Shown: in pieces, positions 5,898-62,759 of the stretch
Numbering within the stretch: position 1 is the stretch's first letter
Layout: each line of letters begins with the position of its first letter
Assembly: GCA_947476255.1 (NCBI GenBank)
Contig: CANJPY010000001.1
Location: forward strand, 53,768-117,767
From: Chthoniobacteraceae bacterium
Lineage (GTDB): Bacteria > Verrucomicrobiota > Verrucomicrobiia > Chthoniobacterales > Chthoniobacteraceae
Direction: 5' to 3'
Length of the DNA: 64,000 bases
Translations under genes and position numbers: made by a program
Notes under the pieces: model-generated
Database searches by the model: none
Seen by the model: only the letters and a program-made list of their open reading frames with translations
Told to the model about the DNA's origin: nothing

Positions 5898-6311
5898 ATG
5901 GGCAGATTTTTTTTCATCCTTGGTGCGGTGGTTTGGCTGCAGCTCCCAGCCGCAGTAGTGGCCCTCCCAAGCCAACCGGCAAAGGCGTGGACTCTGGCAG
6001 ATTTTGGCGGCGTTTTATCCGTTGGTCTGGAAGGACATCGTAACTTTGGCAACGGCAGGAGTCTATTTAAGGGCCAGTGCGCCTCCTGCCATCAAATGGG
6101 AGCCTTGGGGGGAGGCCCAGCGCGCGATCTGAGCAAACGCTCGCTCACGTACGCACCGGAAGAATTGCTCGGCCACATTCTTTCCATGGAGAACCACCCG
6201 CAAAAAAAGAACGCCTTGCTGGAGAATTTCTCTCAGGGCGACGTACTTGATCTGCTCGCTTTTATTCTTTCGGGCGCAGATGCTCAGAGTCCGTTTTTCT
6301 TTCACCCCTAA
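5898..6311 (+). CDS. Small periplasmic c-type cytochrome
   Basis: A 137-aa protein with a signal peptide (MGRFFFILGAVVWLQL, then a PSQPAKA-like cleavage region) and one CxxCH haem site (CASCHQMG, about residue 64). MENHPQKK further on can supply the distal Met. The C-terminal GDVLDLLAFILSG is the last helix of class I cytochromes. An upstream in-frame ATG at 5868 would add ten residues and blur the signal peptide. It sits 2 bp before the TolC-family gene, so it is the first gene of the exporter operon. An electron-transfer role is likely, but its partner is not evident. Confidence 0.82.
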   Translation: MGRFFFILGAVVWLQLPAAVVALPSQPAKAWTLADFGGVLSVGLEGHRNFGNGRSLFKGQCASCHQMGALGGGPARDLSKRSLTYAPEELLGHILSMENHPQKKNALLENFSQGDVLDLLAFILSGADAQSPFFFHP

Positions 6312-6313
6312 AC

Positions 6314-7675
6314 ATGCGCGCCCGACTTTTATCGCAGACCTTCCCTCTCCTGCTGCTTCTGTGCTCGGGAGGAGCATGGGCGGAAACACAACCGGCTTCT
6401 AAACCGGCGGCCGCGCCTGCGTCTTCGTCATCGAGCACACTCATGACACTCGAGCACGCGTATGACATCGCAGCGGCCTCGGACCAAACCCTGCGCATCG
6501 CATATCTCGCCGTCCGGCAGGCAGAACTGCTCCCCCTGAGTGCGCTTACCAAGATCACGCCCCGGCTCAATGGTTCCTTGGGATACGACCGCAGCTCCAG
6601 TAGTTTTACGAGTCCAGATAGCCAAGGGAGGCATCGTGGCATCGCTTCGAGCGATCTGACGCTTCAACTTCCACTTTTGGATTTGACCGTCTTTCCGGCT
6701 CACCGGAAGGGAAAACTCGCCGTCGAATCGAGCCGGCTTGGACGCAAATTCACGATTCGCGAGACGCTGTTTGGCGTGGCTAAAGCGTATTTTGAAGTGT
6801 TGAAGGGCGAACGCGTTGTAGCTGTCAATCAGCAGTCCTTGGATCTGGCGCAGGAACAGGAAAATCTTGCTCAAAAACGTTCGGATGTCGGTGAGGTGAC
6901 TCGCTCTGACGTCCTGCGGGCGAAGGTGAGCGTTGAAACGGCTCGACGGGCGTTGATTACGTCCCAAAACGACCTCGAATTTCAACGCAACACGCTGCTC
7001 AACATCTTAAACCTGTCTCCAACCGTGACACTTCGGCTTGCTGAACCACTCCCCTACAAACGTGATGTGCCTGAATTTGGCCCTCTGCTTGCCAAGGCTT
7101 ATGATCGCCGGGAAGATCTCAGGGAGCGCGCGCTCGCGGTACAACAGGCCGAGATGCACCGAGAGGAGGTGCGTGCAAAAATGGCGCCCACTATTGTGGC
7201 ACAGGGCGGACCAAGCATAGACCGCTCCTCGGGCGAAGGGACCGGAGGAAGACAGAGTACTTGGGAAGGTCGAGTCGCGGTTCAATTTCCGCTGTTTACC
7301 GGAGGCCAGAGGGAACTGGATATTGTGGGAGCGGGGTATGAAATCCAACAGGCCACTCTCGAGAAAGAAAGGCTCACCAAAACCATTGAATCGGACGTCA
7401 AACTGGCTTGGCTAAACGTACAGACTCTTGAAGGCTCCCTGAGCGCTGTCCGTGCCCAAGTCCAAGCGGCCGAACAGGGATATAAAGACCTTCAAAACCA
7501 ATACAGCGCCGGCACCGCCAAGAGCGTCGACGTACTCTCTGCACTCAAGGATTTAAGCGGTGCGCGCGCGGATCTGGCGACGCTCTCTCTCGACTACCAA
7601 GTGGCACTGCGCGCGCTAGAGCAGGTGAGCGGCACGTTTCAAGACCTTCGAGTCCGCCAGCTCACGGAAAAGTAA
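6314..7675 (+). CDS. TolC-family outer membrane efflux protein
   Basis: A 453-aa protein with a signal peptide (MRARLLSQTFPLLLLLC, then AWAE) followed by two outer-membrane efflux protein repeats. The TolC-type long helices are recognisable: TLEHAYDIAAASDQTLRIAYLAVRQAE; VAKAYFEVLKGERV with VNQQSLDLAQEQ and AKVSVETARRAL in the first half; and VKLAWLNVQTLEGSLSAVRAQVQAAEQGYKDL in the second. It forms the trimeric outer-membrane channel. It is followed after 27 bp by the MacA-like adaptor and then the MacB-like ATPase and permease, a complete tripartite ABC exporter. Confidence 0.92.
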   Translation: MRARLLSQTFPLLLLLCSGGAWAETQPASKPAAAPASSSSSTLMTLEHAYDIAAASDQTLRIAYLAVRQAELLPLSALTKITPRLNGSLGYDRSSSSFTSPDSQGRHRGIASSDLTLQLPLLDLTVFPAHRKGKLAVESSRLGRKFTIRETLFGVAKAYFEVLKGERVVAVNQQSLDLAQEQENLAQKRSDVGEVTRSDVLRAKVSVETARRALITSQNDLEFQRNTLLNILNLSPTVTLRLAEPLPYKRDVPEFGPLLAKAYDRREDLRERALAVQQAEMHREEVRAKMAPTIVAQGGPSIDRSSGEGTGGRQSTWEGRVAVQFPLFTGGQRELDIVGAGYEIQQATLEKERLTKTIESDVKLAWLNVQTLEGSLSAVRAQVQAAEQGYKDLQNQYSAGTAKSVDVLSALKDLSGARADLATLSLDYQVALRALEQVSGTFQDLRVRQLTEK

Positions 7676-7702
7676 GCCTTCAGGGCCGGCTGTAATACCT
7701 TC

Positions 7703-8881
7703 ATGAAAAAGCTGTTGCTTCTGCTCATTTTACTGGGCGCCGCAGGTGGCGGATGGTGGTATTTCAACAACCGCAAGCCAGAGCTTCCTGTTTACACGAC
7801 GGAAACCCTCTACAAGGGCGACATCACCCAAATCGTCACGGCCACGGGCACGCTCAAGCCTGTGATTAATGTCACCGTTGGCTGTCAGATTTCGGGGACG
7901 ATCCAACAGCTGCTTGCTGACTTTAATTCCAAAGTCAAAGAAGGGGACATCATCGCGAAACTTGATCCTGCGACTTATCAAGCGGTGCTGCGGCAGGCGC
8001 AGGGTGAGCTTGCAAATGCCCAAGCCACCCTCGAGTTGGCGGAAACAACGGCCCGACGAAAAGAGGAACTCGTGAAACAAAACGCCGCCACCAAGGCGGA
8101 TATGGACTCCGCTGTGGCGGGTCTCCACCAGGCGCAAGCCGGAGTCACGATCCGCGAGGGTGCTCTCCAAAAGGCCCAGGTGGATCTGGACCGTTGCACC
8201 ATCTATTCGCCCATCGACGGGACCGTCATCTCTCGCAGCGTGGACGTCGGACAAACCGTCGCCGCTTCCCTGAGCGCACCGAACCTTTTCACCATCGCCA
8301 ACGACATGACCAGCATGCAGATAGAAGCTGCAGTTTCCGAGGCGGATATTGGTACCGTAGCAGAGGGACAAACCGTGGAGTTCACGGTTGATGCCTTTCC
8401 CTACTCTCCCTTCAGCGGCGTTGTGGAGCAGATTCGTAATTCTCCGGTCACGGTTCAAAGCGTTGTCACGTATTCGGTTTTAGTGCGCGTGAAAAACAAC
8501 GAACTGAAACTAAAACCCGGGATGACTGCCAACGTTTCCATTACCGTGGCGCAGCGCAAAGACATTCTACGCGTGCCAAACTCCGCGCTGCGTTTCAAAC
8601 TTCCCGACCCCGCCCCGACCAACGGCGCCGAAAGGCCCAAAACGGGCGGCAAACCCAAAGGCTTCAAGCCTGAGCGCAAAGTACACCTGCTCAGGGCCGG
8701 CGAGATAAAACCCGTGCCCGCGCCGGTGAAACTTGGCATAGCAGACGGTCTTTTTACCGAGGTGCTTAGCGGGGTTGCCGAAGGCGATGTGGTTGTCACG
8801 AGCCTCAAGAATCCACCACCGGCCAATGCCGTAAAGCCTCCCGCCAACCCATTAGGAGCGCCCTCAATGCGGACACGCTAG
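7703..8881 (+). CDS. MacA-like periplasmic adaptor (HlyD family)
   Basis: A 392-aa membrane-fusion protein. An N-terminal anchor (LLLLLILLGAAGGGWWYF) is followed by the lipoyl half-motif (VTATGTLKPVINVTVGCQISGTIQQLL), the alpha-hairpin (about residues 90-150), the second lipoyl half (CTIYSPIDGTVISRSVDVGQTVAASL) and beta-barrel domains. The GCQISGTI/SPIDGTVISR pair is typical of MacA-type adaptors. It links the TolC channel to the MacB-like permease. A Pro/Lys-rich insert (about residues 305-335, PTNGAERPKTGGKPKG) interrupts the membrane-proximal domain. It is in operon with genes on both sides. Confidence 0.92.
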   Translation: MKKLLLLLILLGAAGGGWWYFNNRKPELPVYTTETLYKGDITQIVTATGTLKPVINVTVGCQISGTIQQLLADFNSKVKEGDIIAKLDPATYQAVLRQAQGELANAQATLELAETTARRKEELVKQNAATKADMDSAVAGLHQAQAGVTIREGALQKAQVDLDRCTIYSPIDGTVISRSVDVGQTVAASLSAPNLFTIANDMTSMQIEAAVSEADIGTVAEGQTVEFTVDAFPYSPFSGVVEQIRNSPVTVQSVVTYSVLVRVKNNELKLKPGMTANVSITVAQRKDILRVPNSALRFKLPDPAPTNGAERPKTGGKPKGFKPERKVHLLRAGEIKPVPAPVKLGIADGLFTEVLSGVAEGDVVVTSLKNPPPANAVKPPANPLGAPSMRTR

Positions 8882-8907
8882 ACGACCGCCCTCGAGTTTG
8901 CGTTATC

Positions 8908-9714
8908 ATGGACGCCGCCGCAGAATCGGTCTTCTCCCAAACGCCCACTGTCCAGACTTCCATGCCCCCCGTCATTTATCTCGATCACGTGTGGAAGACC
9001 TACCGGACGGCGGATGTGGAATTGCACGCAGTCCGCGACGTTTCGCTCACGATTGAGAAGGGCGAATTTGTGGCGATCATGGGTTCCAGTGGTTCGGGCA
9101 AGTCGACGATGATGAATATTTTAGGCTGTCTGGACCGGCCGACGCAGGGGCACTATTTTTTGGATGGCACAGATGTTTCCACCCTCGACCGCGACGGCTT
9201 GGCTGACATACGGAATCAAAAAATCGGCTTCGTTTTTCAAGGGTTCAATCTTCTCACCCGGACATCTGCGGCTGAGAACGTCGAACTGCCGATGATGTAT
9301 GCCCGCAAATCTCTGGGTTCAAAAGAAATGCGGCGCCGGGCGCTCGAGGCGCTCGACATGGTGGGCCTCTCGCAGAGGGCGGACCACCATCCCAACCAGC
9401 TCTCCGGCGGGCAGCAGCAGCGCGTTGCCATTGCGCGGGCGCTGGTGAATCAACCGGCGTTACTCCTTGCCGACGAACCTACGGGCAACCTCGACACCAA
9501 AACATCCGTTGAAATCATGGAGGTCTTCCAAACGCTGAATGATCAGGGCATCACCATTGTCATGGTCACCCACGAGCACGATATTGCGCAGTACAACAAA
9601 CGCTGTCTGGTCATGCGCGACGGTGTAGTGCGCAGCGATGGCCCTGTGGTCGACCGGTTTAGCGCCCGCACACAACGCGAGGCACTCGCCGCAACCGGTG
9701 GCGCGCCCGCCTGA
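8908..9714 (+). CDS. MacB-like ABC transporter ATP-binding protein
   Basis: A 268-aa nucleotide-binding subunit of the LolD/MacB group. Walker A is GSSGSGKSTMMN, the Q-loop lies in VFQGFNLL, the signature is LSGGQQQRVAIARAL, and Walker B is LLADEPTGNLD with the H-loop in MVTHEHD. Here the ATPase and permease are separate genes, unlike the fused E. coli MacB. The first about 19 residues precede the conserved start (MPPVIYLDHVWKTYRT), so an internal ATG near 8962 is an alternative start. It is in operon with the permease 39 bp downstream. Confidence 0.93.
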   Translation: MDAAAESVFSQTPTVQTSMPPVIYLDHVWKTYRTADVELHAVRDVSLTIEKGEFVAIMGSSGSGKSTMMNILGCLDRPTQGHYFLDGTDVSTLDRDGLADIRNQKIGFVFQGFNLLTRTSAAENVELPMMYARKSLGSKEMRRRALEALDMVGLSQRADHHPNQLSGGQQQRVAIARALVNQPALLLADEPTGNLDTKTSVEIMEVFQTLNDQGITIVMVTHEHDIAQYNKRCLVMRDGVVRSDGPVVDRFSARTQREALAATGGAPA

Positions 9715-9753
9715 GGCCGGCAACGGCTGACGCCCACGAACGCCATTCTCTTC

Positions 9754-10971
9754 ATGACTCCTTTAGCCACCTTCAGCCTCGCCTTGCGTGCACTGCAGCG
9801 CAACAAGATGCGTTCCACCCTGACGATGTTGGGCATCGTCATAGGCGTCGGCGCCGTTGTGGCGATGGTTGGCATTGGCAACGGAGCCAAGGCTCAAGTG
9901 GAGGCGCAGATTGCCACCCTGGGCCAAAATGTCATCCTCATTTTCCCAGGCAGCGTAGCCATGGGGGGCGTCCAATCGGGATCGGGAGGTGTGGGCACCT
10001 TGAAACTTGAAGATGCAAAGGCCATTGCGGAAGAGGTTCCGGACGTCTTGGCGGTCAGCCCCGGCACGCGCGCCTCTTCTCAATTGGGGTATGGGAACCA
10101 AAACTGGGCCACATCTGTGGCAGGCGAGGCCCCCGAGTATTTTGAAATCAGACAATGGGAGATCACTTCCGGGGCGGGCTTTACCGAACAGGACGTCCGC
10201 TCCGCGGCCAAAGTCGCCGTGATTGGCTCGACAGTCGCGCGCCAACTCTTTGGCGAAGAGGATCCTGTGGGACTGATTATGCGGGTGCGCAACGTCCCGT
10301 TTCAAGTGATCGGCGTGCTGCGCACCAAAGGCACGTCCGTCATGGGCACGGATCAGGACGACATTGTGATTGTGCCCTATACCACCGTGATGAAGCGTCT
10401 GAGCGGGATCACCAACCTGCGCATGATTTCAGTGCAGTGCGCCAGCGAAGAGCGCACGGCGGCGGTGGTCCAGGGCATCACGGATCTCATGCGTCAGCGG
10501 CACCGGCTGGGCCCGGACAGGGAGAACGACTTTATGGTGCGCAGTCAGCAGGAGATCGCAGAAATGGCGACGGCGACTTCCAAGGTGCTCAGAGTTCTTT
10601 TGGGAGCCATCGCCAGTGTGTCGCTGATTGTGGGTGGCATCGGGATCATGAACATCATGCTCGTAAGCGTGACAGAACGCACACGAGAGATAGGGATCCG
10701 CATCGCGCTCGGGGCCCATGGCGCCGACATCCTGAGCCAGTTTTTGATCGAGGCCGTGACGCTCAGTTCCCTTGGGGGTATCATCGGAATCCTCATTGGT
10801 CTGGGCACCTCGAGTCTTCTTTCACGTTTCGCAGGCTGGCCGACGCTGACGTCTGTGGACGCGATCGTGGTGGCGTTTCTTTTCAGCGCTGCCGTGGGCG
10901 TTTTCTTCGGCCTGTACCCCGCGAAGAAAGCCGCAGCGTTGGATCCTATCGACGCTCTGCGATACGAGTAG
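9754..10971 (+). CDS. MacB-like ABC transporter permease (FtsX family)
   Basis: A 405-aa permease. The N-terminal helix (NKMRSTLTMLGIVIGVGAVVAMVGIGNG) precedes a large periplasmic MacB_PCD domain (about residues 45-260). Three C-terminal membrane helices form the FtsX core, including SLIVGGIGIMNIMLVSVTERTREIGIR, LSSLGGIIGILIGLG and FLFSAAVGVFFGLYPAKKAA. MacB-type pumps drive macrolides, peptides or lipoproteins from periplasm to outside through TolC; the cargo here is unknown. It is the last gene of the operon 5898-10971. The region to the convergent gene end at 11039 is short and has no obvious terminator. Confidence 0.93.
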   Translation: MTPLATFSLALRALQRNKMRSTLTMLGIVIGVGAVVAMVGIGNGAKAQVEAQIATLGQNVILIFPGSVAMGGVQSGSGGVGTLKLEDAKAIAEEVPDVLAVSPGTRASSQLGYGNQNWATSVAGEAPEYFEIRQWEITSGAGFTEQDVRSAAKVAVIGSTVARQLFGEEDPVGLIMRVRNVPFQVIGVLRTKGTSVMGTDQDDIVIVPYTTVMKRLSGITNLRMISVQCASEERTAAVVQGITDLMRQRHRLGPDRENDFMVRSQQEIAEMATATSKVLRVLLGAIASVSLIVGGIGIMNIMLVSVTERTREIGIRIALGAHGADILSQFLIEAVTLSSLGGIIGILIGLGTSSLLSRFAGWPTLTSVDAIVVAFLFSAAVGVFFGLYPAKKAAALDPIDALRYE

Positions 10972-32407: not shown

Positions 32408-34288
32408 TCAGGCGAGCTTGCTGCTGCGCCAGAAACGCTGCGGAAGCGCCGCAAATCCAATCAGCAACAACTGGCTGGCGACAAACATCATCAACCAGGT
32501 GAATGCGGCTGACATGAAGCCATAGGAATGAAGGCCGATTCCCAACATGTTCACGCCAAACCACGACCACGCCGTCACAATGTTGCCGGCAATGGCCAGG
32601 CTCATTAAACCGCGTTCACGGGCAATCCCTCCCCAGCGCGCGTGCAGAAACAACGCGTTCCACAACACAATCATCAGGGCGCCGTTTTCCTTCGCATCCC
32701 AGCCCCAAAAGCGCCCCCAGGACTGATCCGCCCAAATGCCCCCCAAAACCGTCCCGACAAAGCTGAAGAGCGCGGCAAAACACACGATCCCATAAACCAT
32801 CTTCACCAAGGACTTTGCCATCTCCGGCGTCAGGGCCCGCGTAAACACTCCCAGCGCGACATACAAAACGGCGAGAAGTCCGGCGACAAAAGTGCTGGAG
32901 TATCCCAGCGTCACCACGACCACATGGGTTGCCAGCCAGAAGTTTGTATCCAGCACGGCGCGCATCATTTCCATCGTGTCGCCACTCAGGGCCAGGTTGT
33001 GCGCAATGATCAGCGTCATGAAACCCGCCGTGGAGGACACAAGAACCCCGATCCCGTTTTTCCAAAACCGCTCCAGCAACAGTCCGAGCACGCACGCCCC
33101 CCAGCCGATGAAGACGGCGGAGGAATACAGATTCGTCACGGGCGGACGTCCTTCCAAAACCATGCGATAAATGAGGCCGCAGGAATGCACCAGCAACGTC
33201 GCAAGCGTCAGCCACCGCGCCGTCTCACGCAGGAACGCGAGCCGCTCTGGCGCGAGTGTAAAAATCAACACGCAAAGTCCGGCCAATACATACAGGACGA
33301 TGGCCTTGTAAAAAGGCTCCAAATGATTGAACACCTGCTCTCTGGAGCACTTCTTGAGTACTTCGTGCCCGTAAGGCGCGAGTTGCTCCCGGTAAAGATC
33401 CACCGCCGCCTTAAACGCCACGGCATCGCCTTTCCTAAAAGCAGTTCCCATCGAGGCATAGGCGCGCAGCGCGGCCGGAACAGGCTCCCCGCGTGCTATG
33501 CGAAAAAGGGTCTCGTCGGTACGCATCCACCCTGCAATCCCCTCCGCAGGCTGCGGCGGAGGAATCACAAGCGAGGCATTAATCTCCTTCATGACCGAGG
33601 CCCGCTGCAGTTCGGTGATGAGTTTTTCCAACACCGCCTCGTCATAGGGCTGGCCCGCTTGTTGCGCCTTGGCCGCTTCACGCCCCGCAGGCACGGCCTC
33701 CACAAAACGCTGGAGTTCTCTTTCCCAATCCTTCGCATTTTGCGGCTGCACCGTGTTCTGGAGACGCATATACATGCCCACCGAATTCCAGAGCTGCAGC
33801 AGAGCCCTGTCGTAGGGTGTTCGAGCGGACTCCTCCACTGCCGAGGCCCGGCGTGCCTCTTCGCGGACTTCCCCCAACTTGGGAGCGACTTGGTTCCATG
33901 AGAAATGTTTCCCATCCGTCTGCTTGTTTGAATCAGCGTCCAAGGGCAGGCCCAAAAGGCCCTTCACATCGGTGTGCAGAATGCGGAATACCGGTCTGGT
34001 ATCGGCAAGTTCCTGCTTGAAGAACATTTCGAGCAACCACTCCGAGGCGGTCAAGATTTTAGCCCCGCTCTCCCAAGGGGCAGTATTTACGGTCTGCTTC
34101 TCGCGAATCTGCAAAAGCGTGTTGCGCGCCAAAGAGTCCAACGGCTGGACGCGCCCGCCTGCAATGAGAGGAAGTCTTGCGAAGGCATTCACGGCCATCG
34201 CGCCTTCCTTGTCTGCGGGTGTCCGCCACGCGGAGAAAATCCAAAGCAGGGCGAACGCCGCGGTAACTAAAGGAATATTTTTTTTCAT
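32408..34288 (-). CDS. ccsA: Cytochrome c biogenesis protein CcsA (system II) with long N-terminal domain
   Basis: A 626-aa membrane protein. The C-terminal about 270 residues hold about eight helices and the haem-handling WWD segment (WADQSWGRFWGWDAKENGALM), with conserved His near LFLHARWGG and HSYGFM. Residues 1-360 are an extra, mainly soluble region after one N-terminal helix (IPLVTAAFALLWIFSAW) that I do not recognise. CcsA with ResB delivers haem to periplasmic apocytochromes. The ATG at 34288 lies 14 bp behind the resB stop; the frame is open far upstream over resB but not credible. This region fits the cytochromes at 5898, 36153 and 41436. Confidence 0.9.
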   Translation of the reverse strand: MKKNIPLVTAAFALLWIFSAWRTPADKEGAMAVNAFARLPLIAGGRVQPLDSLARNTLLQIREKQTVNTAPWESGAKILTASEWLLEMFFKQELADTRPVFRILHTDVKGLLGLPLDADSNKQTDGKHFSWNQVAPKLGEVREEARRASAVEESARTPYDRALLQLWNSVGMYMRLQNTVQPQNAKDWERELQRFVEAVPAGREAAKAQQAGQPYDEAVLEKLITELQRASVMKEINASLVIPPPQPAEGIAGWMRTDETLFRIARGEPVPAALRAYASMGTAFRKGDAVAFKAAVDLYREQLAPYGHEVLKKCSREQVFNHLEPFYKAIVLYVLAGLCVLIFTLAPERLAFLRETARWLTLATLLVHSCGLIYRMVLEGRPPVTNLYSSAVFIGWGACVLGLLLERFWKNGIGVLVSSTAGFMTLIIAHNLALSGDTMEMMRAVLDTNFWLATHVVVVTLGYSSTFVAGLLAVLYVALGVFTRALTPEMAKSLVKMVYGIVCFAALFSFVGTVLGGIWADQSWGRFWGWDAKENGALMIVLWNALFLHARWGGIARERGLMSLAIAGNIVTAWSWFGVNMLGIGLHSYGFMSAAFTWLMMFVASQLLLIGFAALPQRFWRSSKLA

Positions 34289-34302
34289 CGGCTCAGGCGG
34301 TT

Positions 34303-35856
34303 TCAGACGGTTGGTGCGGACGCGACAGCGGTCTTGGGGGACCTCGGTTTGGAAAGGAACCCCACCAAGTGATACAGGAACTGCCAGAGCATGCCCAAAC
34401 TCACCACCGCACAGCCCAGATACGGCGTGATCCAGCTCGGATTGCGCACGACTTGCAGAACGCTGGTTCCCTTGCCTCCAGTCGGTTCCGTACGCCCCAT
34501 CTGGTGCTGATAAAACGTCAGCCCCCCGTACCGCAGCGGATTGTTCATCGAGATATCCACCTCCCGCTTCTCCGCGCTCGTTGAATTTTCCAAAAACACG
34601 CGGCTTTGAAAGTTTTTCGGGATCTCCGTCCCTGCGTAAACCTCGTGCGTTGTTTTCACCAACTTCAAGGAAAACGGCTGGTAGTAACGTTCGTTTCGGA
34701 GGCCGATTTTGAAAGTCCGTCCCTCCACCGAAACTTCCTGCAGGTTCAGCCATGGCGAAACCACCCAGACCCCCAAGCTGGTGCCTTTTTGAAGCAATTC
34801 CACTTTCGCGTAAGGTGTATTCTGCTGATCCATCCCGCGCACTTCAGGCTGCGCAACCACCAGCGCCTGCAACCCAGCCCCCATTGAAGAGGAGGCAGGC
34901 AGCGCGTCCACGGCAACCGTTCTCCCCTCGGACAGCTCTTTGCCCACGTAACGCATCGAACGCATCCGGTCATTGGCCATCTGCATCGGCGGTATCTTTT
35001 GAAACGCATTGAGCATCTGACTTTTAAAGCGCTTCTTTAACTCTTCGCGCAGTTTCTCGCCGCGCGCCGGATCCGCCACAACCCGGGCCGCGCCAGCCAC
35101 GATGTTTTTGTCGTTCTCTCCCACGGCAGCCAATGCCTGCTTCCATACGTTGAGGCGTCCCTCGTTCTCGAGCGCTTTTTCCGCTTCGCCGGGCAATAGT
35201 TCGAGCTGCGCGTACTTGGTTTCCAGCGTGCCCAGCGCGGTCAACAACTGAGTTGCAGCCTCTTTGACCGAAGGATGCGACAGCACTTCACAGTTTTCCC
35301 CAAACTCCGTGACGCGCAGCTCAAAAGGCACGTCCGCGCCCTGCAACGGCAGCTTCCGGCGCAGGGCCTTTCCGGTGAAGGAAACCACTTTCTCGCGCCC
35401 ATCCGCTCCGGGCTCGCCGGTGACAACAAGTTCTACTTCGCGGTGCGCTTCGGAATAAGCGAGAGTCTGGCCCTCGCCCTGGTCAAAGCGCATGAAACTT
35501 TCCCGGGAAAACATATCCGTGGCCAGCTGCCCGAGCAAAAGCAGCACGATCCCAGCATGCGTGAGGTGGATTCCAACCTTGCCCCAGCTTAATTTGAACC
35601 GCTTCACATGCGCCGCAAGAAGGTTGATGAGGAGTCCGAAACCCAGCGTGTAACCGCCCGTAAAAACGGGGGGTACCCACCAAACGTCGCCGGGACGACG
35701 AAACACAAGGTAGCTCTTAAACCACCGCTCTTGTGCTTCCCACAGGCCCTCGTGCACCTGCGCAAGGGTCCCTAAAAATACCAGCAGCGTGCTCAAAACC
35801 AGAAGCACAACCGTCACTTTAAGTGATGTTAAAAAATTCCAGAGACGTTGGCTCAT
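34303..35856 (-). CDS. resB: Cytochrome c biogenesis protein ResB (CcsB-type)
   Basis: A 517-aa ResB-family protein. It has three N-terminal helices (TSLKVTVVLLVLSTLLVFLG, FTGGYTLGFGLLINLLAAHV, LTHAGIVLLLLGQLATDMF), a large periplasmic domain with FKIGLRNERYYQPFSLKLV and NNPLRYGGLTFYQHQM, and a last helix (WITPYLGCAVVSLGMLWQFLYHLV). It acts as the haem channel partner of CcsA, encoded 14 bp downstream. The 296-bp region to the divergent gene at 36153 is AT-richer and must hold promoters; I see no clear element in it. Confidence 0.92.
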   Translation of the reverse strand: MSQRLWNFLTSLKVTVVLLVLSTLLVFLGTLAQVHEGLWEAQERWFKSYLVFRRPGDVWWVPPVFTGGYTLGFGLLINLLAAHVKRFKLSWGKVGIHLTHAGIVLLLLGQLATDMFSRESFMRFDQGEGQTLAYSEAHREVELVVTGEPGADGREKVVSFTGKALRRKLPLQGADVPFELRVTEFGENCEVLSHPSVKEAATQLLTALGTLETKYAQLELLPGEAEKALENEGRLNVWKQALAAVGENDKNIVAGAARVVADPARGEKLREELKKRFKSQMLNAFQKIPPMQMANDRMRSMRYVGKELSEGRTVAVDALPASSSMGAGLQALVVAQPEVRGMDQQNTPYAKVELLQKGTSLGVWVVSPWLNLQEVSVEGRTFKIGLRNERYYQPFSLKLVKTTHEVYAGTEIPKNFQSRVFLENSTSAEKREVDISMNNPLRYGGLTFYQHQMGRTEPTGGKGTSVLQVVRNPSWITPYLGCAVVSLGMLWQFLYHLVGFLSKPRSPKTAVASAPTV

Positions 35857-36152
35857 TATAAAAATAAATTATCGGACGCGTCGCGGTTGGAGACCTCGCT
35901 TGGGGGCTTTGGGGGGATCATTAAGCTAACCCGAAATCAATATAGAGATTAGCCTTTTCCCAAAACCTCACACTATAGGTCTGCAACCCAGATCCCTGCA
36001 ACAGCAGTTTACCGACAAACCTTCCAACATCCGTGTAAACCGACCCTCACGGGCGCTTTCATGCCGTCAATAACCACCACTGTTTTCCTTGATAGCGGTA
36101 TTTGAGTTTTTAGTTCAAAGCATTCCCCTCATTCAGGGTAGTTCCGTCTGTT

Positions 36153-53395: not shown

Positions 53396-53827
53396 TCAGG
53401 GGGCAATGAGGTGTAGTGCTGCTGCACCACCTGTGAGAAGAGCGGAATCAATGCGTTGATCAAAGGTGGCCAGTTTACTTCCATGCTTCACGGCGAGGGC
53501 GAGAAGGTAGAGGTCCGTGAGCTGCTGTGACTCGGGGAGGCTCGGAAAGGCACGAGGATCCGCGAGGGAAATGTCGTCTGGCCAAAATTGGTGACCAGGA
53601 GCGGCGCGAAATGTATTTAGTACCCGCCTTGCTTCTGCCGTTGACCCCGGTCCGTGGGGATAACTGTTTCCGCCGAAAATGCGGATGAAGGCGTTCTCGG
53701 TGAGCGGGCAGGTGGCCCAGCCTTCCAGGGTGGCGCACTTTTCAAAAAACTGCAGGGCCGCAACCCTATGCGGATGATTGGCGTCCCCTAGCGCAATCAG
53801 CACATTGACATCTAGAAGGTAGATCAT
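53396..53827 (-). CDS. vapC: PIN-domain toxin VapC
   Basis: A 143-aa PIN-domain ribonuclease. It has YLLDVNVLIAL with the first conserved Asp, LTENAFIRIFGG, an acidic pair in ISLADPRAF, QLTDLYLLALAVKHGSKLATFDQRI (two further acidic residues) and a short C-terminal tail. VapC toxins cleave tRNA or rRNA when freed from VapB. The start ATG overlaps the stop of the antitoxin gene (ATGA). A damaged relative of its 3' part lies at 63131-63232. Confidence 0.9.
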   Translation of the reverse strand: MIYLLDVNVLIALGDANHPHRVAALQFFEKCATLEGWATCPLTENAFIRIFGGNSYPHGPGSTAEARRVLNTFRAAPGHQFWPDDISLADPRAFPSLPESQQLTDLYLLALAVKHGSKLATFDQRIDSALLTGGAAALHLIAP

Positions 53828-54111
53828 GCGTTTCCCGTGGCGACGGAGATGATCCTAGCGTCTTCTTCTTCATATTGATGATCGACAAGACGCTGAACCT
53901 GGTCGGTCGGCAGCGCTTCGGAGCGCTTTTTTAAACTCAGGATGCCAAACGGCCCCACTTCGTAGGGGCTGTCCGGCGCGAGAGTTTCCAGCGGAGCGAT
54001 TTCCCTGCGAAGGGCGTGCTCCACCATGGCCTTGAGGGTGGTTTTCCGCTGGGCAGCCAGCGCTTTGGCCGCGATCAACAAGGTGTCGGGCAAATCAAGC
54101 GTGGTTTTCAT
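53824..54111 (-). CDS. vapB: Ribbon-helix-helix antitoxin VapB
   Basis: A 95-aa antitoxin with an N-terminal MKTTLDLPDTLLIAAKALAAQ ribbon-helix-helix that binds its own promoter, and an acidic/Tyr-rich C-terminal region (about residues 60-95) expected to wrap the toxin. It is translationally coupled to vapC. Its 5' region carries repeated GATATGG boxes. Confidence 0.88.
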   Translation of the reverse strand: MKTTLDLPDTLLIAAKALAAQRKTTLKAMVEHALRREIAPLETLAPDSPYEVGPFGILSLKKRSEALPTDQVQRLVDHQYEEEDARIISVATGNA

Positions 54112-54388: not shown

Positions 54389-56296
54389 ATGCCCACCCCC
54401 ACCATTCCATTCTGGGATATCGAGATCACAGAGGACAACGCTCCCCGGTGCAGCTTCAAGCTTCAGGAGGGTTTGCTTTCGCTCGGAGCCTCACGCGATT
54501 GCGAAATCGTCAGCAGCGCAGCCGGCGTTGCCCCGCGGCACGCTGAGTTTTCGGTGAACGCCGGCGTCCTCCAATTGCGCATTCTCGACGGCGTCCCGCC
54601 CGTCCACCTCAATGGCGCCCCCGTGCGAGGCCCCGTCGATGTCCCCTGCCCGGCAACCCTCCAGATCGGCGCCCTGCGCGCGTTCATCACCCACTCCGGA
54701 GCAGACACAGCTTCCGGACGGAACGCTGAGTCCACGCTCCGAATCATCCACCCGGTGAGCCACTGCGCCCCGCAGCGCACGGATCCCGACACCCTCGATG
54801 TCACGGGCCGGATTGTCTACCACCTGCCGGACGCAGAAGAAGCCTCCCCCGCAAAACCGCTTTCCCGCCACCCCGATTTTCAGAGTCAGCAAACAGCCCC
54901 CTTGTTTTCCGGCGAAAGCACCATGGCGTTTTCCATGGAATCCCTGGACCTTGAGATCGCAGACAAGGTCCCGGTACGCATCGAGTACGAGGTCAAAGGC
55001 GAAATCGCCCGGGGCGGCATGGGGAAAATCTACTCCGCCGAGGACGCCGAACTCGACCGTCTTGTGGCCCTCAAGGTCAGCACCGCCGGCGACCCCGGCA
55101 GGAACGCACAGTTCTTCCGCGAAGCCAAGATCCTCGCGGCACTCGCGCATCCCAATATCGTCCCGATCCACAACCTCGGGGTCGACGCCGAGGGGCGTCC
55201 TTTCTATTCAATGAAACTGATCCAAGGGCGCACCCTGCAATGGATCCTTAAACAGCTCGCCGCCGCGGCCCCTGGAGCCGCGTTGGTGTACACCCGGGCG
55301 CACCTGCTGGATGTTTTCCGCAAGGTTTGCGACGCCGTTTCGTTTGCGCACTCCAAGGGATACCTGCACCGCGACCTGAAGCCCGAAAACATCATGGTGG
55401 GTGAGTTCGGGGAAGTGCTCGTCATGGACTGGGGGCTGGCGAAGATCATCCGCAGGCACGGCGCGGGAACGGCGAGTCAAGGGTCGGAGGAGCATGAACC
55501 GGATTCCCTGCCCTACATCGAGGGCACTCCCCAGTACATGTCGCCCGAACAAGCAAACGGGATGTTCGGTGGACTGGACGAACGCTCCGACATCTATTCG
55601 CTGGGCGGTGTGTTGTACGCCATACTCACCCTGCGTCCACCGGTGAGCGGTTCCTCCCTGAACGAAGTGCTTGAAAAGGTGCGCAACGGCGAAACCACCA
55701 CCATGGCGCTGCCCCAAGGTTCAGTGACAACGATGGATCCGACGCGCGTCTCGGGGGTGCCGGAGGCCCTGCGGGCTGTCACGCACAAGGCACTGGCGCG
55801 AGAGAGGGAGCGCCGTTACCAGAACGTGGAGGCGTTTACGGCGGATATCGAAGCGTACCAGAACGGGTTCGCCACGAGTGCTGAGACCACTGGCATCGTG
55901 CGCCAGTTTGTGTTGTTGGTGAAGCGCCACCGCATCGCCTCTGGATTTGCAGCCGCATTGCTCGCAGGTGCCGTGGTTTTCACACTGCGGCTGGCGGCCA
56001 GCGAACAGCGGGCGAACGACAATGCTCTTTTGGCGCGCAACGAGGCGGCCAGCGCTGCGGCGCATGCGAGGCGCGCGAGCGAACAATCCGCGATTGCCAG
56101 TGCGAACGAGCAACGCGCTCTCGAAAACGAGGTGCGCGCTGTCGCCAATGAACGCAGGGCGCTGGAGCAAAAGGAGAGTGCTCGCAAATCCGCGGCTCGC
56201 GCACAAATCGCGCTCGCCGAGGCCGCCGAACAAAACCTCAACGCGCACGGAATCCGCTCTGCCCTCGACGGGGTAGACGACGATCTTCAAGGCTAG
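54389..56296 (+). CDS. FHA-Ser/Thr kinase, N-terminal part of a split kinase-propeller gene
   Basis: 635 residues up to an in-frame TAG. Residues 1-115 are an FHA-like beta-sandwich (LLSLGASRDCEIV, HAEFSVNAGVLQLRILDG, VHLNGAPV). The protein kinase domain (about residues 195-490) has GEIARGGMGKIY, VALKV, LHRDLKPENIMV and MDWGLAK (DWG variant), TPQYMSPEQ and SDIYSLGG. A membrane helix (about residues 519-535, FAAALLAGAVVFTLRLA) and an Ala-rich coiled coil (540-620) follow. The amber at 56294-56296 (LQG-stop-EWRY) appears to replace a Trp codon: the next 129 bp continue in the same frame into the propeller domain. A membrane receptor kinase sensing the periplasm is the likely ancestral role; the kinase part may still work alone. 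Confidence 0.85.
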   Translation: MPTPTIPFWDIEITEDNAPRCSFKLQEGLLSLGASRDCEIVSSAAGVAPRHAEFSVNAGVLQLRILDGVPPVHLNGAPVRGPVDVPCPATLQIGALRAFITHSGADTASGRNAESTLRIIHPVSHCAPQRTDPDTLDVTGRIVYHLPDAEEASPAKPLSRHPDFQSQQTAPLFSGESTMAFSMESLDLEIADKVPVRIEYEVKGEIARGGMGKIYSAEDAELDRLVALKVSTAGDPGRNAQFFREAKILAALAHPNIVPIHNLGVDAEGRPFYSMKLIQGRTLQWILKQLAAAAPGAALVYTRAHLLDVFRKVCDAVSFAHSKGYLHRDLKPENIMVGEFGEVLVMDWGLAKIIRRHGAGTASQGSEEHEPDSLPYIEGTPQYMSPEQANGMFGGLDERSDIYSLGGVLYAILTLRPPVSGSSLNEVLEKVRNGETTTMALPQGSVTTMDPTRVSGVPEALRAVTHKALARERERRYQNVEAFTADIEAYQNGFATSAETTGIVRQFVLLVKRHRIASGFAAALLAGAVVFTLRLAASEQRANDNALLARNEAASAAAHARRASEQSAIASANEQRALENEVRAVANERRALEQKESARKSAARAQIALAEAAEQNLNAHGIRSALDGVDDDLQG

Positions 56297-58245
56297 GAGT
56301 GGCGTTATTTAAAAGGCGCAAGCAACTCCGCTGCCTGGACACGCGAGATCAACAGCGCCGAGTACCCCGCCCTGTTACCGCATCCCGAATATTCCGGCGT
56401 CCTCCTTGCTCTCCACAAGGATGGTGTGCTCCGGTTCATCGACCTCACCAGCGGCTTGGCCCAGGACATCTGCAAGATTCAAGATACACGAAATCTTGCA
56501 TTTATGGATGGATTGGCAATCACCTCTGATGGAAAGACGGCCGCCATCACCACGCGCAACACGGATAAAAACGCCCCGGGGAAAAACACCGTTCAGATTC
56601 ACCTCGTACATCTCGAAGACGGGAAGCGAGTTCCTTTGAATGAGTCTCCTTCCGGCACGGGCTCCCGAGATTTGGCGTTCAGCCCCGATGGAAAATTCCT
56701 TATGGAAAGGTACGGCAACCGTCAGGCAACCCTGTTCGACACCGAAAGCAGCGCCGTTTTATGGAGTAAAACCGGAGGTTCGTTTGAGCTGTATCACTTT
56801 CAAGCGACTGGCACATGCCGCTACATCAGCGCCTCAAGAACGTACGCGCAACTTGCTCCCCAGACGGGCTTGGATCGCGGCACCATGAGCAAAGTTCCAT
56901 TTAGCATCCCCACTTTTGGGTTCCTATGCGATTCTAATGCCAACCAAATACTGTACCATGACTACGGCATCATTCGAAAATTCAACATGCTCGACGGCCA
57001 GGTTCTGTTTGAAAACCGCCTGTCCATCGCCATCGGCCAGTGGCGGAGCGTTCAAATATCGTACGTGGATGGATACAATTTGACGGTTTCTCTTTCACCA
57101 ACAATCGACAACGAGGCGACTCTGCAAGTTTGGGACGGAGCGCAAGGAACCCTGGTCAAATCGATTCCTATCGAAATCCCGGGATCCAACAGGGGAGGCT
57201 GGAAGCTTTTGGCACATTCAAAGTGGCGGCACGTCGCCATCATGCGCGGAAACACGATCAAGGCATGGCCGATTCAAAACGTCCGAGAAGATTTGTTTGT
57301 TCCCATGGAGGGTCACATCTCCCATGGATTTGCTTTCGGGAGCGCTCCCGACAGTTTCATTTATCAAAAACCACGCCGTTCTTTACAGGCAGAAGTGGCA
57401 GTCTTCATGTCGGGTGAAAAAGACGCCCAAAAGACAGGATTGCTCGAGGGGATCCACAATCCCATTTCTTTTTTTCATCCACCCGTAGCGGCGAACGTCT
57501 GGCTTTCGGTGCCGTATCCAACTTTTACTCTCCTAGCTCGCTGCGCTTCTTTGGAAACATCGAAGAGACACGACTGCAGCCCCCTGGCAACGGTTCGCCC
57601 ATTTCCGGGGCTCCCCACTGCTTTGAACTGAGCCCGGACGGATCCCTCCTCTGGCTGGGCAGCGGTTTTTACGAGCCCTCCGCACAAAAGCGCATCCACG
57701 AACTCGACCGCTCGGGCATGGAGAGACCGGAGGGAGTTGAATCGGCGTGCTGGGTTGGAAACTCGCACGTCGCGGAAGTCGTCACATGGGTTGTGCCAAA
57801 ATCGGACCGCCGCCGCGCCATCGCGCGCTGGAGCCTCAGCGAGGCCAAGCCCCTGCTGGAAGAGGCACCGAATGCAAACGCGGTCTCCGCGTCGCCGGAT
57901 GGGGCGCTGATTGCCGAGGCAGGAGCGGACATGCGCGTGCGCATCCGGGACGGCGTGACTTTGGCCGAGCGAAAAACACTCCGCACCCACAATGCGCCCG
58001 TTACAGGAGTGGCATGGCATCCGACTTTGCCCCTTCTTGCGACTGCCTCGCAGGATTACACGGTCAAAATCTGGAACCTGGAAACGGAAGCCCTAGTGGA
58101 GGAGATCGGTTTATTTCGGAGCGTACCCGGCAAGCTATACTGGAGTCCGGACGGAAAAAGGCTCGCCGTTCGAACGAACGGATCCGCAGACAGGGGCGGG
58201 ATCAGCCTGTTTACTCCAAAATCCTGCACTCAGGCCGGCAAGTAA
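56297..58245 (+). pseudogene. Detached beta-propeller C-terminus of the FHA kinase gene (amber plus frameshift)
   Basis: The frame continues from the amber codon through EWRYLKGAS... and a WD40-like propeller to 57631. At the T7 run (57469-57475) the sense shifts: from about 57475 the propeller continues in a different frame ([34 protein letters not shown]) to a stop at 58245, ending with [30 protein letters not shown]. One lost T in the run explains it. With both lesions repaired, the gene would be a single protein of about 1285 residues spanning 54389-58245. Sequencing error is an alternative for either lesion. Confidence 0.8.
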
Positions 58246-60215: not shown

Positions 60216-62759
60216 GTGAACCAGTGGGCTCTTTCCCTCCTCGGCCCCGCAGGGCTCATCTCGCGATTTGAATCTGGGACGGCGCATTTTGTCCTCGGGA
60301 CAGAGGAGGCGCCTGATGTATTGCGGGTGAATGGCGAAGGCGTGGCCGCGCGTCACGCTTGGGTGTGGATTGCGGACGGCAGCATGCAGGTTGAGGACCT
60401 TGTCGGCGGCACCTTGGTGAACGGACATCCTGTGAGCGGACGGGTCCAGATAGACTATCCGGCTTCGGTGCAAGTTGGAGACGTGACGTTGGTGGTGGTA
60501 CACAAGGAACATGCCGAAACCGAGGGGGCCATTACCCTCCCGCAGCGCTCGAATCGGGCACCGTCAAAGAGTCCCGGTGGACTGCTCGAGTCGCCAGTGA
60601 GCACCGTCCTGCCACCTCCCGAAGGTCTGGCGGGTACGCATTGTCAGTACCGGTTGTTGCGTGAAATTGCGCGGGGTGGGATGGGGCGCATTTATTTCGG
60701 AGAAGATGCGCAGCTTAAGCGAAACGTCGCGGTGAAGGTGAGCAGCATCAGTGAGCAAGGGGTGGATGCGCGTTTTTCTAAGGAGGCTGAGGTCCTTGCT
60801 CTATTGGCGCACCCCAACATCGTGCCAATTTATGCGCAAGGGATGGACAGTTCGAACCGTCCCTTTTATTCAATGAAGCTCGTGAATGGGCGGACGCTAC
60901 AGGCCCTGCTAAATGCGATCCGCGACGGCGAGGCGTTAGCGGTGAAGGAGTACCCCCGGGCGGCGCTGCTAACCATTTTCCGGAAGGTGTGCGATGCCCT
61001 AGCGTTTGCGCACGCAAAGGGTGTGTTACACCGCGACCTCAAACCGGAGAACATCATGGTAGGGGAATACGGGGAGGTGCTCGTAATGGACTGGGGCCTG
61101 GCCAAGGTTCTGGGGAGTGACGAGACGCTCGGTGCGACGAGATCACCTGCAAAGGGTACGGCCGATTACGGAATGACGATGGAGGGGGAGGTTATGGGGA
61201 CGCCTCAGTACATGTCGCCCGAACAAGCCGAGGGAATGGTGGCTGAACTCGACGTGCGCTCGGACATTTATTCGCTCGGCGGGATCCTCTACGCGATACT
61301 CACGATGCGCCCGCCGATTGACGGTAAGACGCTGGACGAGGTGCTCACCAAGGTAAAGAAGGGCGAGATCACCTCGATGGCGATCAAGGGGGACGCAAAA
61401 ACGGGCGCGGTTATGGGCACGCTAGTGTCCAAGGGTGTAGAGGTGCCTGAGGCCTTGCAGGCGGTGACACTCAAGGCCATGGCCACGGACCGAACGACGC
61501 GCTATGCGGGCGTGGTTGCATTTGCGAAGGACATTGAATCTTACCAAAACGGGTTTGCCACGAGTGCGGAGAATGCGGGGGCATGGAAGCGCGTGAAGCT
61601 GTGGGTTGGCCGCAACAAGGGGTTGGCGGGAGCAACGGCAGTCTTGATGCTTGTAGTCAGTGGCTTCACGGCACGCGTGATTCAGAAAGGACAAGAGGCC
61701 ACCGAGGCGCTCAGAAGTTTGGCGGATACGGCGCCGACGTTTGCCCTTCGGGCTCAGGACGCCCTGCACTCAGGCGACTATGAGGAGGCATTGAAGGCGG
61801 TGTCGTTCGCCCTCCATCTTCATTCCTCCGTCGCGGAATACCATGTGATTCGGGGGAACATTTTGCAGCTTTTAGTACGCTGGCCTGAGGCAGTTGCAGA
61901 ATACCGGTTGGCCGGTGAGCATGAAATGGCGCAGAAAAATTTAATGCTCACTGAGGCGCTTATCGCCAAGGCCAAGGTAGAGGGGGAAAAAAAGGCCAAG
62001 GCCTTCCTGTTTGAGGCGCTGGGCGAACAAGGACGCCAGACCGAGGCGATGAGATTCGCGAGAGATCTCGAAGATTTTTGGAAAGGCCGAAAGGGCGATC
62101 CCAAAGCTCTCGCCGAACTAGTTCACCGCTTGGAATCAAAACTGCTGCCAGTGCCGGGGACAGGCGTTTTAATGTGTAAAACCGAGTTCACGGCAGGTGA
62201 GTGGAAGCTCTACGACAAAGCAACCCATCAGACTCTTTATGCGCAACCAGGCAGCTGGAAAAGGTCCGGGGTGGAGTTTGTGCAGGATGACAATCACCCC
62301 GTGGTTTACTGCAGTTGGAAAGCGGTTCAAGCCGTTGCCGAGTTTTTAAGTTCACAAACAGGCAAGGAATGGCGAGTGCCCACGAGTGCAGAATGGAACG
62401 CTGCCGTGGGACCTTCCAAGTATCCGTGGGGACAATATTATCCTCCCAACTGGGACGACGGAAATTACGCAGCAGGCGCAGGATTGGGACAGGATCCGGA
62501 AAAAAAAGGTTTCGATGGCATCTACGGCACAGCCCCAGTGGCATCATTTAAGCCTAATGCTTTGGGGTTCTATGATCTGGGAGGCAATGCCGCGGAATGG
62601 ACCGCGGATTTGGGGCCTGATAAAAAAGGCCCGCGCTTTCTTCGTGGTGGCTCGTGGATAAATTATAACGTTGGCTGCACATCCTCCTTCAAAGAAACCA
62701 ATCCTGAGACCTTCTCAGACAACACCACCGGGTTTCGCTTGGTGCGGGTGCAAAAATAA
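60216..62759 (+). CDS. FHA-Ser/Thr kinase with TPR and formylglycine-enzyme-like C-terminal domain
   Basis: An 847-aa paralogue of the split kinase. An FHA domain (about residues 15-110, with VAARHAWVWIADG, LVNGHPVSG) and the kinase domain (about 145-440: REIARGGMGRIY, VAVKV, LHRDLKPENIMV, MDWGLAKV, TPQYMSPEQAEGM) precede a membrane helix (about 470-488) and TPR-like helices (about 505-625). The last 200 residues are an FGE-sulfatase (C-type-lectin-like) domain: EFTAGEWKLYDKAT, HPVVYCSWKAVQAVAEFLS, WRVPTSAEWNAAVG, YDLGGNAAEWTADLG, FLRGGSWINYN, TGFRLVRV. The start is a GTG at 60216. A membrane signalling receptor with a periplasmic sensor is likely. Confidence 0.9.
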   Translation: MNQWALSLLGPAGLISRFESGTAHFVLGTEEAPDVLRVNGEGVAARHAWVWIADGSMQVEDLVGGTLVNGHPVSGRVQIDYPASVQVGDVTLVVVHKEHAETEGAITLPQRSNRAPSKSPGGLLESPVSTVLPPPEGLAGTHCQYRLLREIARGGMGRIYFGEDAQLKRNVAVKVSSISEQGVDARFSKEAEVLALLAHPNIVPIYAQGMDSSNRPFYSMKLVNGRTLQALLNAIRDGEALAVKEYPRAALLTIFRKVCDALAFAHAKGVLHRDLKPENIMVGEYGEVLVMDWGLAKVLGSDETLGATRSPAKGTADYGMTMEGEVMGTPQYMSPEQAEGMVAELDVRSDIYSLGGILYAILTMRPPIDGKTLDEVLTKVKKGEITSMAIKGDAKTGAVMGTLVSKGVEVPEALQAVTLKAMATDRTTRYAGVVAFAKDIESYQNGFATSAENAGAWKRVKLWVGRNKGLAGATAVLMLVVSGFTARVIQKGQEATEALRSLADTAPTFALRAQDALHSGDYEEALKAVSFALHLHSSVAEYHVIRGNILQLLVRWPEAVAEYRLAGEHEMAQKNLMLTEALIAKAKVEGEKKAKAFLFEALGEQGRQTEAMRFARDLEDFWKGRKGDPKALAELVHRLESKLLPVPGTGVLMCKTEFTAGEWKLYDKATHQTLYAQPGSWKRSGVEFVQDDNHPVVYCSWKAVQAVAEFLSSQTGKEWRVPTSAEWNAAVGPSKYPWGQYYPPNWDDGNYAAGAGLGQDPEKKGFDGIYGTAPVASFKPNALGFYDLGGNAAEWTADLGPDKKGPRFLRGGSWINYNVGCTSSFKETNPETFSDNTTGFRLVRVQK

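Follow-up and report, generated by a model that had tools for sequence, protein, structure and literature searches.

Planctomycetota and related phyla have well-described membrane serine/threonine kinases that carry WD40 arrays at the C-terminus; in these, the kinase is predicted to be cytoplasmic and the WD40 part mostly periplasmic (PMC11032199). As for genes whose reading frame changes along their length, those frameshifts that appeared as singletons in the GeneTack survey were mainly ascribed to recent indels or to sequencing errors (PMC3711429).

The locus described here touches on both subjects. It lies in a window of 64,000 nucleotides, the whole stretch of DNA that was analysed, from an uncultured bacterium in a Chthoniobacteraceae-like genus of the Verrucomicrobiota; its genome is a 5.15-Mb draft of 189 contigs with 93.4% completeness. 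Positions 54389-58245 (+) of this window hold a single FHA, Ser/Thr kinase, transmembrane and beta-propeller gene with two interruptions, an amber codon and a frame change. This copy is probably a young, recently inactivated pseudogene from a family of membrane-anchored sensor kinases with FHA, kinase and WD40-propeller parts, of which this bacterium has multiple copies. The weight of about two thirds given to real decay was not calculated; it expresses a judgement.

A kinase-propeller gene in three pieces

The first open frame spans 54389-56293 on the forward strand (635 codons) and is closed by TAG at 56294-56296. The same frame resumes immediately after this codon and stays open over 56297-57628, up to a TGA at 57629-57631; the 393 codons past the amber that contain no stop would be expected by chance with a probability of about 5e-8. 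One base back from the kinase frame, a third stretch is open over 57418-58242 and ends with TAA at 58243-58245. The pieces were scored against a profile of length 1256 built from intact full-length relatives. Taken singly, they reached 858, 208, and 241 bits, respectively. Joined as a single protein, with an X at both breaks and the best switch points, they reached 1349-1353 bits, against only 1100 bits when joined without a frame shift. Their matches to the profile are successive and collinear, the first piece covering positions 7-607, the second 610-977, and the third 1002-1254. Given the joined score and the succession of these matches, the three pieces belong to one gene, which bears out the preliminary description of a single gene split by an amber codon and a frameshift.

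The first piece (54389-56296, +), delimited from its open reading frame, its translation, and Pfam matches, encodes an FHA-like N-terminus, a kinase, a putative transmembrane helix, and a charged stretch. The Ser/Thr protein kinase domain occupies residues 200-481 (Pfam Pkinase, E=1.5e-33), and its catalytic motifs are intact (ARGGMGKIY, VALKV, HRDLKPENIM, and MDWGLAK). At the N-terminus the Pfam FHA match is below the 20.7-bit cut-off (17.8 bits, E=0.0047), and identity to the nearest relatives is about 50% (47-51% for the FHA region). A putative transmembrane helix is located near residues 517-535 and is followed by a charged stretch rich in Ala and Glu, both assigned by eye. The second piece (56297-57475, +), recognized by the profile and by homology to intact relatives, continues in the kinase frame with the N-terminal part of the propeller. 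The third piece (57478-58245, +) carries the C-terminal WD40 blades (Pfam WD40, E=1.1e-14) and ends at the natural TAA stop.

When 57 genomes were searched with the propeller part, strong matches were almost confined to the same genus. Most of these matches are encoded in one open frame, some 1110-1310 aa long; for the same-genus relatives as such the length is about 1130-1310 aa. No internal stops were found among the matches listed. The named relatives comprise metagenome-assembled Chthoniobacteraceae as well as other Verrucomicrobiota. Comparison with relatives, a check put forward in the preliminary description, shows the gene unbroken in them, with neither the stop nor the T-run at the corresponding sites. 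A DNA search of the genus returned no near-identical copy of the locus, and no other genome from this species was found. Within the host genome, 17 stretches resemble the kinase half; with so many homologues, the bacterium should be able to do without one copy.

Downstream of the broken gene, at 60216-62759 (+), Pfam matches identify an intact paralogous kinase in which TPR and FGE-sulfatase domains replace the propeller. Upstream, a PIN-domain protein is encoded on the reverse strand at window positions 53396-54111 and a small antitoxin-like gene stands ahead of it; judging from gene order and the Pfam PIN match, the two probably form a VapBC-type toxin-antitoxin pair.

The amber codon and the frame change

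The premature amber codon (56294-56296, +) falls where the propeller meets the transmembrane/charged stretch. In 21 aligned same-genus copies, which take in paralogues from the same genome, this column is occupied by Gln (CAA or CAG) in 20 and by Asn in the remaining one, and none of them has a stop there. Because CAA or CAG is so nearly constant in the relatives, a change of CAG to TAG is the simplest and likely event at this position. The ancestral TGG codon proposed earlier was rejected, since the relatives carry Gln and not Trp in this column, and looking for TGG in the reads would thus be the wrong test.

No tRNA with a CTA anticodon was found among 41 tRNA-family matches, an absence that is not absolute in a genome that is 93% complete, and TAG serves as the stop of about ten further open frames in the window. 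On these grounds, suppression or reassignment of the amber codon was rejected. One match to the tRNA family, at approx. 200-306 on the reverse strand of locus L192 (G000:C101), has a long variable region and was not called by ARAGORN; its anticodon loop, judged by eye, does not read CTA. In-frame start codons exist past the amber, the first at 56426, and inspection by eye revealed no convincing ribosome-binding site for them.

The second interruption is a -1 frame change, the kind left by the loss of one base. Profile scores of all switch points, together with the reading frames, place it within 57418-57480 (+). Between 57418 and about 57478 the scores stay within about 3.8 bits of each other, with the top score (1352.6) inside the T7 run at 57469-57475 (+) and a drop after 57481. 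Judged by these scores, T7 appears to be the most likely site of a one-base deletion within about 60 bases. The earlier placement of the shift at T7 is thus matched by the best score, but homology confines the shift only to about 57418-57480. The relatives have no T-run at this point. Seven T is an ordinary run length here: the window holds 8 runs of T7 or T8, and 18 relative loci, each about 5 kb long, together hold 36 runs of at least 7 of any base.

Age and cause of the damage

Three sets of comparisons bear on the age of the lesions. In the kinase, the fraction of identical residues between the query and its nearest relatives is 0.73-0.74, and intact relatives show 0.70-0.74 among themselves. 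The corresponding values are 0.22-0.27 and 0.23-0.29 for the first propeller part, and 0.35-0.39 and 0.32-0.45 for the second. In the kinase, propeller, and combined trees, the root-to-tip distance of the query is mid-range and its branch is not elongated. Since the identities match those among intact relatives and the branch is of ordinary length, decay can only just have begun, and long-standing relaxed selection was rejected. The GC content of the propeller is low (52%); a foreign or decayed propeller was considered on this account and rejected, because nearly all intact relatives share the lower GC of the first part. The first propeller part as such (56297-57475, compared across loci L056-L073) shows only 20-29% identity between copies that reach 70-74% in the kinase; it has the features of a fast-diverging putative sensor, with lower GC in nearly all members. 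Given that there is no excess divergence and no further stop in nearly 400 codons, the damage is either very recent or an assembly error. This agrees with the alternative drawn in the preliminary description, as the two lesions are small, the gene is otherwise intact, and it is not evolving faster than its relatives.

Between these two, recent decay is favoured. A C-to-T transition would have turned a conserved Gln codon into TAG at the point where the transmembrane/charged stretch joins the propeller. The other lesion, which may have come before or after it, would be a one-base slip within the propeller, most likely in T7, that broke it a second time. Decay would lead one to expect two lesions in the same gene, because a second mutation is neutral once the first has disabled the gene. 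If the locus is transcribed, its product would be the 635-aa half comprising FHA, kinase, and membrane segment, deprived of the propeller, the presumed sensor in the periplasm. The propeller pieces would be neither made nor exported, and a propeller begun at a start past the amber would have no membrane anchor. Both lesions would then be real in the cell and the function lost. As read from its sequence, the copy is likely non-functional or, less likely, sensor-less; its catalytic half is intact, and the truncated kinase might still work. The lesions found here are disabling and absent from the orthologous and paralogous copies, as is expected of a pseudogene.

The other branch of the alternative is an intact gene in a metagenome-type draft, with one lesion or both due to errors of sequencing or assembly, or to the consensus of a minority strain. 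This is a real but distinctly lesser possibility. The fragmented and incomplete state of the draft would allow it, as would the lack of any sign of relaxed selection and the fact that homopolymer indels are a typical error; moreover, a kinase-propeller gene in a same-genus metagenome-assembled genome (L082, 1692-1732, CAMDSZ010000306.1) is similarly split, at an A9 run near the beginning of its propeller. However, the C-to-T change behind the TAG does not belong to the homopolymer errors, so that two unrelated errors would be needed in a 3.9-kb gene, and T7 is short, other runs of 7-9 in the window showing no obvious breaks. A coding-potential scan of the 64-kb window also detected no other clear split of a single gene. 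A generally error-ridden window was likewise rejected, since those suspicious neighbouring frames that were checked with Pfam proved to be separate genes (the ResB/CcsA genes at 32411-35868, the efflux genes at 6251-10968, and others). Other kinase-propeller genes in draft relatives are broken at different points, as in L082 and L119, and these breaks fit decay and artefact alike.

Three further explanations would leave the gene a function, and all carry far less weight than an assembly error. That the 635-aa kinase is retained in a sensor-less form, the amber trimming the propeller and the remainder being dead weight, is quite improbable: the stop does fall at the boundary of two domains, and the kinase has kept its motifs, but no independent truncation at this point was seen among the collected loci, and after so recent a lesion intact motifs would be expected anyway. 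Phase variation, with slippage in T7 turning the propeller part on and off, is still harder to credit. The homopolymer does coincide with the best-scoring frameshift point. Nevertheless, a long or conserved repeat, expected at a phase-variable switch point, was not found: there are only seven T, a short run in DNA where runs of this length are common, with none at that point in the relatives. Furthermore, the T-run alone cannot switch the propeller, as the upstream amber keeps it off whatever the length of the run. The reversible switching suggested at first is thus not supported. The least credible explanation is recoding, in which readthrough of the amber and -1 slippage would yield a little full-length kinase beside a sensor-less majority. 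In its favour, T7 read in the upstream frame is T TTT TTT, a slippery heptamer in the right phase for -1 slippage, which would lead into the third piece. Two events in series would nevertheless be required, the searches recovered no tRNA able to read the amber while TAG ends other frames of the window, and the relatives share neither site. Of the hallmarks of a programmed -1 frameshift, the in-phase heptamer is thus present, and a conserved site and a stimulatory structure were not found. RNA folds were no better than those of shuffled sequences, either downstream of T7 (z=-0.09) or at the amber (z=0.18), and stimulated frameshifting was rejected because the fold downstream of T7 is unremarkable.

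Comparison with intact kinases and described frameshifts

A pseudogene of this age shows cleanly how gene loss starts in an expanded family of Verrucomicrobiota sensor kinases, an ordinary finding that in itself matters little. It does carry a caution for annotation: in drafts of this kind, kinase and propeller frames that are split should not be annotated as separate genes until they have been compared with relatives.

The closest counterparts are FHA-Pkinase-TM-WD40 kinases of the same genus, for example two from one genome (G004:C19, CANFTB010000019.1, and G004:C33) and one from another (G002:C180, CANJZW010000180.1), which share the domain order of the window copy from end to end. Their identities to it are 73-74% in the kinase, 47-51% in the FHA region, and 22-39% in the propeller. 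They are unbroken frames of 1268-1299 aa, whereas the window copy has the amber and the frameshift. The single uninterrupted frame expected of a member of the FHA-Ser/Thr kinase-WD40 family is lost here through the TAG at 56294 and the -1 shift within 57418-57480; the window copy is a member of this family by descent, a broken and not a working one.

With the Planctomycetota-type kinases (PMC11032199), the window gene has in common the kinase, the transmembrane segment, and the C-terminal WD40 blades, and it differs from them in its FHA-like N-terminus and in being broken. Finally, it resembles the GeneTack singletons (PMC3711429) in that its frame transition is not conserved among relatives, but unlike them it carries a nonsense codon upstream in the same gene.
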